A DNA stretch of 64,000 bases from Arthrobacter sp. SLBN-112 (GTDB lineage Bacteria > Actinomycetota > Actinomycetes > Actinomycetales > Micrococcaceae): positions 1,364,001 to 1,428,000 of the forward strand of contig NZ_VFMU01000001.1 of NCBI RefSeq assembly GCF_006715225.1, given 5' to 3'. Below the pieces are notes generated by a model that had not been told where the DNA came from, searched no databases, and saw nothing but the letters and a program-made list of their open reading frames with translations. The translations under genes and the position numbers were made by a program. Shown here piece after piece: positions 10,645 through 35,628 of this stretch (positions are counted from its first letter, which is position 1; every line of letters begins with the position of its first letter).

Positions 10645-12386
<1,742 letters not shown>

Positions 12387-12412
12387 TTTCTTCCAAGCCC
12401 CCGGAGTCCCAT

Positions 12413-12892
12413 GTGATTATCGACAAAGTCCTCGGCAACCTGCATGACCTGCCGGACCCTGAAACCTACGCCGGGCTCCACCGGGAAAAAGTGGTGCTTC
12501 CCAGCGCCTCCCTCGTCAAACGCATCCAGCGCGCCACCACGGACCACGGCAAGGAAATCGGCATCCGCCTCCCCGCCGGCTCCGGAGACCTCCGCGACGG
12601 CGACATCCTGCACGTGGACGAGACCAACATGATCGTCGTCTCCGTCCTGCCCACCGACGTCCTGGTCATCGCGCCCCGCACCATCCACGAAATGGGCGTC
12701 ACCGCACACTCCCTCGGCAACCGGCACCTCCAGGCACAGTTCTTTCACGCGTCGTCTGAATATGGAGCCGACGTCATGGTGTGCGCCTACGACCACACCG
12801 TCGAGGACTACCTCCGCCACAACTCAGTGCCCTACACCCGCCAGGAACGCGTCCTCCCTGTACCTTTCCGCCATGCTGAGCACTCGCACTAG
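12413..12892 (+). CDS. ureE: urease accessory protein UreE (nickel chaperone)
   Basis: A 159-residue nickel-binding chaperone that delivers Ni2+ to the urease activation complex. Family segments include REKVVLPSASLVKRIQRATT, TIHEMGVTAHSLGNRHLQAQ (with the interface metal-binding His) and VMVCAYDHTVEDYLR. The His-rich tail is short (FRHAEHSH), unlike the long poly-His tails of some species. It starts at GTG 12413 with GGAG 7 nt upstream; ATG 12411 is out of frame. A 150-bp gap holding a large hairpin element separates it from ureF. Confidence 0.94.
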   Translation: MIIDKVLGNLHDLPDPETYAGLHREKVVLPSASLVKRIQRATTDHGKEIGIRLPAGSGDLRDGDILHVDETNMIVVSVLPTDVLVIAPRTIHEMGVTAHSLGNRHLQAQFFHASSEYGADVMVCAYDHTVEDYLRHNSVPYTRQERVLPVPFRHAEHSH

Positions 12893-12941
12893 TAGTCCTG
12901 TCGCCGCGCTGCGCGCTGCACGGGAGGTGTCCCTTGGGTGC

Positions 12942-13011
12942 GACGGCCCGGATTGGGGGCCGTGCCCGCTTCGCGGTGCCCGCCACGCCGCGGCCCCCAA
13001 TCCGGGCCGTC
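12942..13011. repeat. palindromic element, copy 1 (ureE-ureF gap)
   Basis: Perfect 21-bp inverted arms (12942-12962 and 12991-13011) enclose a 28-nt loop (12963-12990, beginning TGCCCGCTTCGCGG and ending CCACGCCG). A near-identical loop recurs in copy 2 at 14413-14440 (27 of 28 bases the same). The stem arms of the two copies are unrelated in sequence. It ends 31 nt before the GTG start of ureF. CCTTGGGTG lies just upstream, and a near-match precedes copy 2. Confidence 0.8.
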
Positions 13012-13042
13012 ACGATGCTCCGTACCGTTGGGCGGCACTGCA

Positions 13043-13711
13043 GTGAGCAGTTACCAGCTTGCTCTTCAGCAGCTCACCGATTCTGCGCTTCCTACTGGGG
13101 CTTTTGCTCACTCTTTTGGGTTTGAAACGTACATCGATCGGGAGCTCGTTTTTGATGAAGGGACTTTCGGAATCTGGCTCGGCGCCTTCATCTCGCAGTC
13201 GCTCGCATACTCGGATGGGTTGGCCGTTCGGCTCTTCTATGAGGGTGTTGATCTGGGGGAGCTGGATGCTCTCTTGTCTGCTTCTCTTCTGCCGCGGCAG
13301 GTTCGGGAGGCCAGCCTCAAGATGGGGTCCCGGCTGCTGGAGATCGGTGGGGAGGTGTTTCCCTCACCTGCGCTGGAACTGTACCGGGACCTGGTGACCA
13401 CGGGCCGCGCCGCCGGGCACCAGCCGCTGGCGTTCGCCGTCGTCGCCCGCTCCCTGGGCGTGCCCCAGCAGCAGGCGCTCGCCGCCTACCTTTTCGCCAC
13501 CGTCACCACCCTGACGCAGAACGCCGTCCGTGCCATCCCCCTGGGCCAGAACGCCGGGCAGCGGGTGCTGCGGAAAGCTCACGACGGCGTCGGTGCCGCC
13601 ATCGAAGTGATCGCCCGCCTCACGCCGGACGACCTTGGCGCCGTCAGCCCCGGACTCGAAATTTCGCAAATGCGGCACGAACGCCAACGTGCCCGGATGT
13701 TCATGAGCTGA
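13043..13711 (+). CDS. ureF: urease accessory protein UreF
   Basis: A 222-residue accessory protein that joins UreD and UreG in the complex that loads nickel into urease. Conserved residues include [20 protein letters not shown] near the N-terminus and [16 protein letters not shown] near 165-185. I chose GTG 13043; in-frame extension to 12938 would read through the palindromic element and is not UreF-like. No clear ribosome site precedes the GTG. Codons from the start to about 13370 are rich in T-ending forms (gct, ctt, ttt, gat), then switch abruptly to the C/G-ending use of the neighbours. Confidence 0.92.
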
Positions 13712-13736
13712 CCGCTTTTTATTTCAAGGAGGACGC

Positions 13737-14354
13737 ATGTCTGAACCCATTAAGATCGGCATCGGCGGACCCGTCGGTGCCGGCAAAACCCAGCTGGTGG
13801 AGCGGCTCACCCGGCACATGAGCGGCGAGATCTCCATGGCCGCCATCACCAACGACATCTACACCATCGAGGACGCCAAAATCCTCGCCGCCAACGGCAT
13901 CCTTCCCGTGGACCGGATCATCGGTGTCGAAACCGGCGGCTGCCCCCACACCGCCATCCGCGAAGACACCTCCATGAACACCGCCGCCATTGAGGAACTC
14001 AAGGCACGGCACCCAGACCTGCAGGTCATCTTCGTCGAATCCGGCGGCGACAACCTCTCCGCCACCTTCAGCCCCGAACTCGTGGACTTCTCCATCTACA
14101 TCATCGACGTGGCCCAAGGCGAGAAAATCCCGCGCAAAGCAGGCCAGGGAATGATCAAGTCCGACCTCTTCATCATCAACAAGACCGACCTCGCACCCCA
14201 TGTCGGCGCGGACTTGTCAGTCATGGAACGGGATTCCCGCGAGTTCCGAGGGTCTAAGCCGTTCTGCTTTACCAACCTCAAAACTGACGAAGGACTGTAC
14301 AAGGTCATCGATTGGATACGCCACGACGTCCTGATGCTTGACCTGGCGCAATGA
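13737..14354 (+). CDS. ureG: urease accessory GTPase UreG
   Basis: A 205-residue SIMIBI-class GTPase that powers nickel transfer to urease. The P-loop is GPVGAGKT (residues 11-18). The nickel-binding CPH motif is Cys69-Pro70-His71 ([13 protein letters not shown]), and the guanine-specificity motif NKTD is present in [15 protein letters not shown] strong AAGGAGG lies 5 nt before ATG 13737. Its stop overlaps the ATG of ureD (ATGA at 14351-14354). Codon use is normal for the genome, in contrast to the 5' parts of ureF and ureD on either side. Confidence 0.97.
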
Positions 14355-15307
14355 CCTCAAGCAGTTCCAGCGTCCAGTCACCTTGGGCGGCGCCCGCGGA
14401 CGAAGGGGACCGTGCCCGCTTCGCGGTGCCCACCACGCCGCGGCCCCCTTCATCCGCGTCCGCTGTTCGCCCAGTGCGAGGTCGTTTGGAGTTGGGCGTC
14501 GAGGCGCGCGGGGGGAAGTCTCTTGCCTCGCACCAATTCCATGAAGGTGCCTTACGGGTGATGCGACCTCACTACCTTGATGACTCCGGGCAGGTTTGTT
14601 ATGTCGTCGTCAATCCTGGTGGGGCTTATCTTGGGGCTGATCTCTTCCTCGTGGAGGTGAAGGTGGGGGACGGAGCTGACCTGCTGCTGACGACGCAGTC
14701 CGCGACCAAGGTTTATCGCACTCCCGGGTCTTTTGCTGAGCAGCGGATGGCTGTCCGTTTGGGGGAGGGGGCGCGGCTGGAACTCATGCCGGACCAGCTC
14801 ATCGCCTACCGGGAGGCCAGCTACCGGCAACGGACTTCTGTGACCCTGCGGCCGTCGTCGAGCCTTGTCATGGCGGAAGTGGTGACGCCCGGCTGGTCGC
14901 CGGACGGGGCCGCTTTCCGGTACGAGGAAGTCCGGCTGCGGAACGAGATCCATGTCGAAGCTGATCAGGGCACCCCACTGCTGGCGCTGGACAACCTGCT
15001 CATCCGTCCGCCGCTCCACGACGTCAACGGGCCCGGTTTCATGGAGGGCTACAGCCACCTGGGTTCGCTGGTGGTGGTGGACGCGCGGGTGGACCAGGCG
15101 CTCGCCGACGAACTGCATGGGCTGACCGGCGGCCGCGAAGCATTGACCGGCATCTCCCTGACCCGCACCGTGTCCGGAACCACCGGGCTGGTGCTGCGCA
15201 GCCTTTCCAACAGCACCGATGAACTGAACCTGCTGCTTCGATCCTGCACCGATTACCTGCGCGAACGCTGGTATGGGCAGGGCCCGCTGGACCTGAGGAA
15301 GCACTGA
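14351..15307 (+). CDS. ureD: urease accessory protein UreD (UreH)
   Basis: An accessory scaffold of the urease activation complex, 318 residues from ATG 14351. The conserved family start ([14 protein letters not shown]) only begins at residue 44. The first 41 residues include a stretch encoded by palindromic element copy 2. An in-frame GTG at 14474 directly after that element (VRGRLELG, giving 277 residues) matches normal UreD length and may be the real start. ATG 14351 overlaps the ureG stop, but neither start has an obvious ribosome site. T-ending codons dominate from about 14545 to 14765. Later family motifs include [16 protein letters not shown]. Confidence 0.9.
14390..14463. repeat. palindromic element, copy 2 (within 5' end of ureD)
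   Basis: Imperfect 23-bp inverted arms (14390-14412 and 14441-14463, 19 of 23 pairs matching) enclose a 28-nt loop (14413-14440) differing from copy 1 by a single base. The stems do not resemble copy 1 beyond the few bases next to the loop. It lies inside the annotated ureD frame and ends 10 nt before an alternative GTG start. CCTTGGGCG lies directly upstream (14381-14389). Confidence 0.75.
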
Positions 15308-15552
15308 TGGCCAGCCTCGCCGCGCTCTACCGGGTCCGGGACGCGCTGCCGCTCCGGACCCGGACGCTCTTCACCTTCGGTGCCGTGGCCGCACTGCATG
15401 CTGCCGCCGTCGCACTTATGCTTGCCGGAAACACGCTGATTGCGTGGCTTGGATCCATCGACCTGGGTGACGCCGGCCTGCCGCTGGCAGCGCTGCTGCT
15501 GGCGGCCTGGGGTGGCGCCGCACTGGCGTCGAGGCAGCCCCGGAACGAATAA
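15307..15552 (+). CDS. small membrane protein coupled to ureD
   Basis: An 81-residue protein whose ATG overlaps the ureD stop (TGATG), so it is translationally coupled to the urease operon. It has two hydrophobic helices (TFGAVAALHAAAVALMLAGN and LPLAALLLAAWGGAALAS) separated by a short acidic loop, and basic residues at both ends. I recognise no family. Urease operons of related bacteria often end with a nickel permease, but the metal-binding HxxxxD signature of NiCoT permeases is absent. A strong terminator follows at once. Confidence 0.65.
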   Translation: MASLAALYRVRDALPLRTRTLFTFGAVAALHAAAVALMLAGNTLIAWLGSIDLGDAGLPLAALLLAAWGGAALASRQPRNE

Positions 15553-35028: not shown

Positions 35029-35628
35029 TCAGTGACCGCCAGGGCCGCCGGTTTCGGTGGCGGTGATGGTGAAGTTTGTGTCGAGTTTGACGGTGGTGCG
35101 GGTGCCGTCGGAGGTGGTGATGTGGGCTTCGTAGACGGCGGACCCGTCGTCTTCAGTGGTCATGGACTCGATGGCGGCGCCGGAGTTGGCGGCCAGGATG
35201 GCGGCCTTGACCTTGTCGGCGGTGTCGCCGGTGAGGTCGGTCTCACTCCCGTGGTGGCCGTGGCCGCCGCGCCCGCCTCCGGTTTCGGTGGCGGTGATGG
35301 TGAAGTTTGTGTCGAGTTTGACGGTGGTGCGGGTGCCGTCGGAGGTGGTGATGTGGGCTTCGTAGGCGGCGGACCCGTCGTCTTCAGTGGTCATGGACTC
35401 GATGGTTGCGCCGGAGTTGGCGGCCAGGATGGCGGCCTTGACCTTATCGGCGGTGTCCCCGGTGAGGGCCGTTTCGTTCCCGTGTCCGGCCCCCGCCGGT
35501 GCGGTGCTGGAGGCGGTTGGTGTCGTGGTTGCGGCGTTAGCCGGCAACGCGGCGGCAGTGAGGGCGCCGCCGCCGACGAGCGCGCCGATCAGGGTGGCGC
35601 CTGCCGCAATTTTCCGGAAGTTGTACAT
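35029..35628 (-). CDS. secreted protein with two tandem PepSY-like repeats
   Basis: A 199-residue exported protein. The signal peptide ends near LPANA (residue 32). Two nearly identical 77-residue units follow, each containing LTGDTADKVKAAILAANSGA, IESMTTEDDGSA and GTRTTVKLDTNFTITATETG, resembling PepSY domains. Both units end in Gly/His-rich linkers (GGGRGGHGHHG, GGPGGH). ATG 35628 has AGGAGA 6 nt upstream; the frame extends further without support. The two units are about 97 percent identical at DNA level, implying a recent duplication. PepSY domains are known protease-inhibitor-like or metal/redox-associated modules, and the flavocytochrome nearby fits the latter. Confidence 0.85.
   Translation of the reverse strand: MYNFRKIAAGATLIGALVGGGALTAAALPANAATTTPTASSTAPAGAGHGNETALTGDTADKVKAAILAANSGATIESMTTEDDGSAAYEAHITTSDGTRTTVKLDTNFTITATETGGGRGGHGHHGSETDLTGDTADKVKAAILAANSGAAIESMTTEDDGSAVYEAHITTSDGTRTTVKLDTNFTITATETGGPGGH
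35050..35490. repeat. 231-bp tandem duplication inside PepSY-like gene
   Basis: Copy 1 (35050-35280) and copy 2 (from 35281) share almost every base over about 200 bp, with only about five differences seen by eye until the copies diverge near 35485. The 231-bp period equals 77 codons and keeps the frame. Confidence 0.9.

Follow-up and report, generated by a model that had tools for sequence, protein, structure and literature searches.

Two hairpins that flank the ureF and ureG genes have been analysed in a 64,000-nucleotide window of Arthrobacter sp. SLBN-112 (contig NZ_VFMU01000001.1, positions 1,364,001 to 1,428,000 of the forward strand). Element 1 lies within a leader open reading frame (ORF) between ureE and ureF of the urease operon, and element 2 lies in frame in the N-terminal part of ureD. 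These elements belong to a low-copy palindromic family of Arthrobacter sensu lato. It is proposed here, with moderate confidence, that both hairpins are copies of a small inserted palindromic element that acts as a folded minus-strand hairpin with a nearly fixed loop. No report of this element was found in the open PMC literature, as covered by titles, the beginnings of abstracts and selected passages.

The original prediction, made from the sequence alone, described the two hairpins correctly. A repeat search of the window finds the arms of element 1 to be 100% complementary over 21 bp, with 28 nt between them, and the arms of element 2 are paired at 19 of 23 positions. Their loops (12963-12990 and 14413-14440) differ at a single base, and CCTTGGG(T/C)G precedes both. 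The two also have some 8 nt in common on either side of the loop, giving 44-nt cores of 95% identity in the same repeat search; the outer stems are unrelated, as had been claimed. A direct repeat, GTGCCCGC, can be read inside the loop motif of element 1 (12962-12969 and 12976-12983). Chance is excluded as the source of the motif, since 100 shuffles of the window contain no match at 3 or fewer mismatches. Folding of element 1 gives z-scores of -5.80 (plus strand) and -6.73 (minus strand) relative to shuffles, and that of element 2 gives -3.15 and -4.65. None of 200 shuffles folds as well in any of these four foldings, and the minus strand is the better folder in both elements. Neither hairpin qualifies as an intrinsic terminator, there being by eye no T run 3' of either; a scan allowing only loops of 3-8 nt finds three terminator-like sites in 12800-14600, none of them at the hairpins.

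The loop and the stem of the element evolve in opposite manners. At the ureF site (48 genomes) the mean pairwise difference is 0.053 for the loop, 0.394 for the stem and 0.167 for the ureF+ureG coding sequence, and the corresponding values at the ureD site (47 genomes) are 0.044, 0.438 and 0.176; the loop values are somewhat low because the sets were limited to short loops with at most 3 mismatches. The reading frame that crosses the loop is not the same at ureF as at ureD, and in the inverted ureD copies and at cysD the loop is read from the opposite strand; its conservation is therefore not for protein.

The stems, in turn, covary strongly. In an alignment of 50 distinct elements, picked without obvious hybrids, 95.3% of the 800 cells are paired and two-sided changes are seen in 14 of the 16 stem pairs, with 197 two-sided cells against 10 one-sided ones. 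The covariation score is 0.634, compared with 0.153 for shuffled and at most 0.215 for slid alignments, and none of 500 shuffles reaches the observed pairing or score. The pairing is conserved in orthologous operons of other species and, with three copies in the strain's own genome, there is no genome-wide repeat with conserved stems; neither of the outcomes named as refuting the original prediction was thus obtained. The earlier view that no fixed element was simply copied is borne out by the covariation. Related species differ by single compensated pairs at the glpK/leuS junction, which indicates that stems change in place. When stems are typed by a 14-nt string, 19 types are found at ureF (68 rows) and 25 at ureD (76 rows), four of them at both sites; the stem is therefore copied along with the rest of the unit and drifts afterwards, one pair at a time. 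The outer stems of the two hairpins are unrelated, as originally described, but stems are not invented site by site. The changes of stem type on the gene tree are far above the minimum (39 against 18 at ureF, 45 against 24 at ureD). Some elements (L047, L051, L084, L104 and L147; L numbers denote loci) have arms of two types, as recombination within the core would give.

The mismatches left in the stems distinguish the two strands. They were counted from aligned arms; in an ungapped count, which was misleading, most G.T pairs of one stem type came from a slip in register. Read on the loop strand, 71 distinct stems contain 805 Watson-Crick pairs, 15 A.C mismatches (13 contexts), no G.T and 9 others; six further stems, including L051 and L147, are set aside from this set as hybrid or unpaired, and L153 was realigned. 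The 33 distinct arm pairs of glpK/leuS contain 743 Watson-Crick pairs, 10 A.C, 1 G.T and 8 others. Counted by contexts, the two sets together give 21 A.C to 1 G.T (two-sided p ~1e-5 under equal likelihood). This ratio is 18:1 at urease and glpK, where the mRNA has the same sense as the loop strand; at dnaJ and cysD the mRNA corresponds to the other strand, and the three contexts there are likewise A.C. An A.C on the loop strand corresponds to a G.T or G.U wobble on the opposite strand. As A.C rather than G.T mismatches are found whatever the direction of the gene, it seems to be the opposite strand that folds, rather than the urease mRNA. A second, longer loop form, described below, folds at -31.5 kcal/mol as minus strand and at -24.0 kcal/mol as plus strand in an alignment of 36 sequences; on the minus strand a G.U is present in 32 of the 36 at one pair, along with several G.C/G.U exchanges. 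The strand evidence favours a folded minus strand over a hairpin that acts in the urease mRNA. The 21:1 contexts, in a count that is not tree-aware, and the better minus-strand folding also point towards a folded single strand as a possible substrate, which may be single-stranded DNA rather than antisense RNA.

The loop has been searched for in the strain's own genome and in those of the genus. Within the 4.40-Mb genome three matches with up to 3 mismatches are identified, of which two are the urease copies and the third lies between grpE and dnaJ, and a covariance model built from 50 copies likewise finds three. In the genus 102 of 150 genomes are matched, with none for the reversed control. 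Under strict filters the covariance model detects the element in 36 of 41 genomes, which have 0-4 copies each. The element was also found in 100 stretches of named records; all 80 that were listed come from Arthrobacter, Pseudarthrobacter or Paenarthrobacter. At the family level a 24-nt pattern matches 16 of 245 genomes, 5 of these in three other genera; only two genomes outside the genus (G218 and G273) are convincing, because the reversed control matched 2 genomes and three of the five have only 2-mismatch hits. Among 122 distinct elements found by the pattern, 117 occur at five gene junctions: ureE/ureF (40), ureG/ureD (40), grpE/dnaJ (28), glpK/leuS (6) and cysH/cysD (3), with 5 elsewhere. 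In these counts labels were merged where just one neighbour matched, and the figure for glpK/leuS is too low, since the loop there departs from the search pattern. A phage origin was considered and rejected, an exact 20-mer of the loop having no match in viral contigs. The grpE/dnaJ junction of Arthrobacter horti (L262) carries two elements with different stems, about 280 bp apart and in opposite orientation.

Filled and empty orthologous sites are both observed. The urease locus was taken from 130 genomes (30 + 100), UreG being found in 134 of the 150 genus genomes, and a FastTree tree of ureF+ureG was made for 128 genomes. From the ureE stop to the UreF anchor the distance is mostly 34-73 nt at empty sites (a few 93-102), mostly 171-222 nt with the short loop and mostly 231-282 nt with the long loop, with some exceptions. 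The inserted DNA at ureF amounts to about 130-190 nt with the short and about 190-240 nt with the long loop, and empty sites in relatives show a compact ureE-ureF overlap. On the tree the filled or empty state changes 17 times at ureF against 42.5 in shuffles, and 27 against 40.1 times at ureD, so that this state is largely inherited. Short-loop copies at ureD are inverted in 10 genomes. One private new site (L294) has been identified after a permease gene: all 19 relatives read (L420-L438) are without its loop and stem, and a terminator-like palindrome common to the relatives sits downstream and is intact. The element at this site brought its own stem. Apparent half elements, with the left arm kept and the loop or right arm gone, are seen at a ureD site (L139) and a ureF site (L157).

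The glpK/leuS junction differs in that no empty site was found among the 22 seen. Thirty loci were collected through GlpK, of which 22 are followed by leuS in the stretch taken and the other 8 are without leuS in that stretch (L406, L408, L414, L415, L417 and L418 are loci not followed by leuS; L400 and L401 carry the ordinary short loop). All 22 junctions are filled, with 16 short loops (15 exact), 3 long loops and 3 of a third class. These 30 loci are the fair set, as the loop in a set picked by the pattern lies exactly at the mismatch limit and its conservation is biased.

The element occurs with exchangeable loop cassettes. A second loop of about 85 nt, whose inner helices covary, is present on the same stems as the 28-nt loop. 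At ureF the short-loop L062 and the long-loop L051 have the same stem and nearly the same flanks, and at glpK the pairs L394/L396 and L411/L410 carry one stem under a short and a long loop. Loop forms therefore reassort with stems. A strict search places the long loop in 42 of 150 genomes, with 48 of 49 places at the urease locus. The loop form is nearly random on the gene tree: it changes 16 times at ureF, where shuffles give 17.7 and 86 of 500 are as low, and 20 times at ureD, where they give 23.6 and 32 of 500 are as low.

Some further loop variants have been noted. The third loop class, GCCCGCTTCGCGGACGCCCGAAGCCGCTCCC or one base shorter, occurs between glpK and leuS in L399, L405 and L416 on the stems GTTATGGGGG, GTTAAGGGGG and GTTGAGGGGG, each with its own matching arm. 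Two ureD sites (L064 and L297) have an extra tandem copy of GTGCCCGCTCCGCG in the loop. The 12-mer CTCGCAAGCTCG of the long loop is found at 11 places in the strain's own genome (G000, loci L439-L449) and at none for the reversed control; the printed contexts of these copies look like hairpins with differing stems and suggest a related dispersed palindrome family.

The reading frames of the urease genes are kept across the insertions (coordinates are given in the table). In SLBN-112 the TGA of the leader ORF (13044-13046) overlaps the present ureF start GTG (13043). The frame of the old ureF start is open in all 69 filled ureF sites, extending at least as far as 60 nt short of the UreF anchor, and in 60 of the 69 its end is an ATGA, GTGA or TTGA that overlaps a potential start codon. 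At 46 of 53 empty sites the old ATG is in the ureF frame, and ureF can start there within ureE. For ureD, one frame is kept from the ureG stop to the conserved UreD motif at 39 of 45 short-loop, 23 of 26 long-loop and 38 of 40 empty sites, that is, in 62 of 71 filled sites. The sites are related by descent and these counts are not independent trials. It is probable that the leader ORF is translated.

Table. Features of the urease operon and its two palindromic elements (positions in the window).
Feature	Position	Strand	Remark
ureE	12413..12892	+	5' neighbour of element 1; from the ORF list
Ancestral ureF start ATG	12873	+	inside the 3' end of ureE; empty-site arrangement in relatives
Leader ORF, 57 codons	12873..13046	+	from the old ureF ATG through element 1; from the ORF list
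Element 1	12942..13011	+	limits of the perfect 21-bp hairpin; arms 12942-12962 / 12991-13011
Element 1 core	12955..12998	+	44 nt common to both elements
Loop motif, element 1	12962..12989	+	conserved 28 nt, used for searches
ureF	13043..13711	+	present start GTG; frame and stop as ORF 12938-13711
ureG	13737..14354	+	from the ORF list
ureD	14351..15307	+	start ATG overlaps the ureG stop; from the ORF list
Element 2	14390..14463	+	arms 14390-14412 / 14441-14463, 19/23 paired, read from the sequence
Element 2 core	14405..14448	+	44 nt common to both elements
Loop motif, element 2	14412..14439	+	conserved 28 nt, one base different

On the favoured reading, the element would bring its own stem and would have been long resident at a few gene junctions in Arthrobacter sensu lato. 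Its acting form would be a hairpin of one strand only, the complement of the printed strand, in which a nearly fixed loop is carried on an almost perfectly paired stem. The letters of the stem may drift because only the pairing counts. A change in one arm, which appears as A.C here and as a G.T or G.U wobble on the folding strand, would soon be matched in the other arm; selection, template switching at the inverted repeat, or the two together would bring this about. Exchange between copies or strains, probably through recombination or conversion, would involve complete stems as well as the loop cassettes of 28 or about 85 nt. The minus-strand hairpin, with its loop outward, may be recognised by a partner, presumably a trans-acting enzyme or a binding protein that reads the loop. 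In the urease operon the element may be tolerated because translation continues, by way of the leader ORF coupled to ureF and the in-frame insert in UreD. A bolder proposal, possible but doubtful, is that these elements represent a new class made of folded single-stranded DNA (or minus-strand RNA), with exchangeable loop cassettes, stems of free sequence and arm-to-arm correction, resident at operon junctions and read through by ribosomes; if true, stem mismatches would report the folding strand.

Several points weigh against an inserted element acting through its minus strand. Three G.T mismatches appeared in an earlier count; the elements concerned (L051, L147 and L153) each combine two arm types. 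The mismatch asymmetry could partly reflect strand-biased mutation, and the mismatch contexts share descent and are not independent events. Two G.U pairs are also common when the long loop is folded as plus strand (34/36 and 28/36). Stem types follow the tree to some extent, changing 39 times at ureF (49.9 in shuffles) and 45 times at ureD (52.9 in shuffles), and the loop form at ureD may do so as well, 32 of 500 shuffles being as low. The small number of sites across the genus and the 22 of 22 filled glpK/leuS junctions fit long residence better than active jumping. Comparison of filled and empty sites by eye defined neither the ends of the element nor the target-site duplications by which a miniature inverted-repeat transposable element would be recognised. 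A Y1 transposase is absent from the strain's own genome and from 60 of the 61 genomes searched, in a search that covered no other enzyme class. Concerted evolution of the two copies of a genome was also considered and rejected; it gave a shuffle p of 0.007, yet a copy matches its partner in the genome no better than it matches the copies of nearest relatives. In that comparison of ureF and ureD loops within genomes with those of nearest relatives, 10 are closer and 8 farther (n=27), so that conversion within the genome is not demonstrated.

Among the rival explanations, a functionless palindrome maintained by template switching is unlikely. In this process replication slips from arm to arm and imperfect arms are recopied perfect, the palindrome being a passive by-product, and the 197 two-sided changes against 10 one-sided ones agree with it. 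Stem upkeep of this kind is a documented process: passages of published reports describe that template switching can create and maintain perfect stems (PMC8794818) and can invert the spacer of an inverted repeat (PMC8604942), and repeat conversion is discussed in parts of a report on hairworm mitochondria (PMC6649704). It leaves unexplained, however, why the loop is the most conserved part and why the same loop is present at unrelated loci with unrelated stems, and also the asymmetry of A.C over G.T. The insertion of a loop into palindromes already present, such that the stem is the terminator of the target and only the loop moves, is very improbable. At glpK/leuS the stem follows the stop codon in terminator-like manner and bears short, long and third-class loops, short and long ones even on the same stem; all 22 of these junctions are filled, and the element-free glpK loci are not followed by leuS. 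At L294, however, the element came with a stem missing in 19 of 19 relatives while the nearby terminator-like palindrome is intact, and stems taken from target terminators are not supported there.

The original prediction had also offered the hairpins as RNA regulators of ureF and ureD translation. A regulator of translation or processing in the mRNA, for example through coupling by the leader ORF, is now quite unlikely. Each hairpin does lie immediately ahead of a gene or in its early part, the folds are very stable, and 60 of the 69 filled ureF sites have a leader frame that closes on a start codon. The mismatches on the mRNA strand are nevertheless A.C and not G.U (18 contexts to 1), the ureD copy is inverted in 10 short-loop genomes, many urease operons are without the element and the element is present at the unrelated dnaJ, cysD and glpK-leuS junctions. 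A small antisense RNA gene, whose product would be a structured minus-strand transcript occurring in two loop forms, is decidedly improbable. In its favour are the minus-strand helices of the long loop, which tolerate G.U (32/36 at one pair). A simple scan, covering sigma-70-type promoter patterns only, found none on either strand in 12800-14600, and Rfam covariance models gave no match in 12000-15500 of the window; in 14 loci there was a single Rfam match, in L174 and far below the threshold of its family, and none to the element. One common RNA role is also awkward because the minus strand is the mRNA strand itself at dnaJ and cysD. An ordinary repetitive extragenic palindrome (REP) or RAYT-driven repeat is extremely improbable. 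The element is palindromic and mostly at gene junctions, and the dispersed family with the CTCGCAAGCTCG motif has its 11 copies in the same genome. The copy number of 0-4 per genome in 41 genomes and the variation of the stems lead to the rejection of an ordinary REP, and copies in coding frames and the missing Y1 transposase also stand against it.

Folded single strands are recognised in other systems, including integron attC sites and Rep/HUH origin hairpins, where the structure of one strand outweighs the sequence of the stem. Rep origins have a conserved loop with varying stems. Unlike these origins, the element has a loop of 28 nt and not a nonanucleotide. REP palindromes are linked to RAYT. 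The element resembles REP/RAYT sequences and bacterial miniature inverted-repeat transposable elements in being short, palindromic, near genes and non-autonomous, and differs from REPs in its few copies (three here), its variable stems, the lack of a Y1 transposase in its own genome and a location that is not extragenic, the ureD copies being in frame. REPs are described, in parts of one report, as having a consensus motif in common and multiple copies (PMC12306157).

The closest described kind is the Rickettsia palindromic element (RPE), a likeness drawn from published descriptions of these inserts. Portions of published reports describe RPEs as palindromic inserts of 105-146 bp in frame within conserved protein genes and also in intergenic regions (PMC2229807, PMC10969869), with 44 insertions dispersed over many genes in R. 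conorii, and with arms that lose identity with time (PMC6649704). The element shares with them a palindromic insert of about 100-150 nt (longer in the long-loop form), placed in frame in protein genes, and the existence of empty orthologues. It differs in having 0-4 copies at recurring sites instead of dispersal over many unrelated genes (117 of 122 at five junctions), a nearly fixed loop, exchangeable cassettes and arms that stay complementary while their letters change. The mitochondria of Nematomorpha offer another parallel, with near-perfect inverted repeats within coding sequence whose arms are kept identical, for which repeat conversion or template switching is discussed in passages of the report (PMC6649704). 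Those repeats encode conserved protein on both arms, unlike the element, and these passages describe neither a conserved loop nor a common inserted unit.

The element provides a natural case in which the loop and the stem of one unit evolve under opposite rules at many orthologous sites. The manner in which long stems stay paired, by selection, double mutation or template switching, becomes testable on real sequence histories. Counting A.C against G.T is a simple means, needing only sequence, of telling the folding strand of a palindrome. If the interpretation is true, in-frame palindromic inserts, best known from Rickettsia, would be extended to free-living soil bacteria of high G+C content.

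Other repeats have been identified outside the element. An unrelated repeat, GGTCGAGCTTGTCGAGACC, and its relatives are present at ureE/ureF or ureG/ureD sites in L085, L094, L121 and L141, and repeats of this type are in frame at ureD in 9 of the 9 sites so labelled. Elsewhere in the window, at 35044-35484, there is a direct repeat of two 210-nt copies that are 95% identical, with a spacing of 231.

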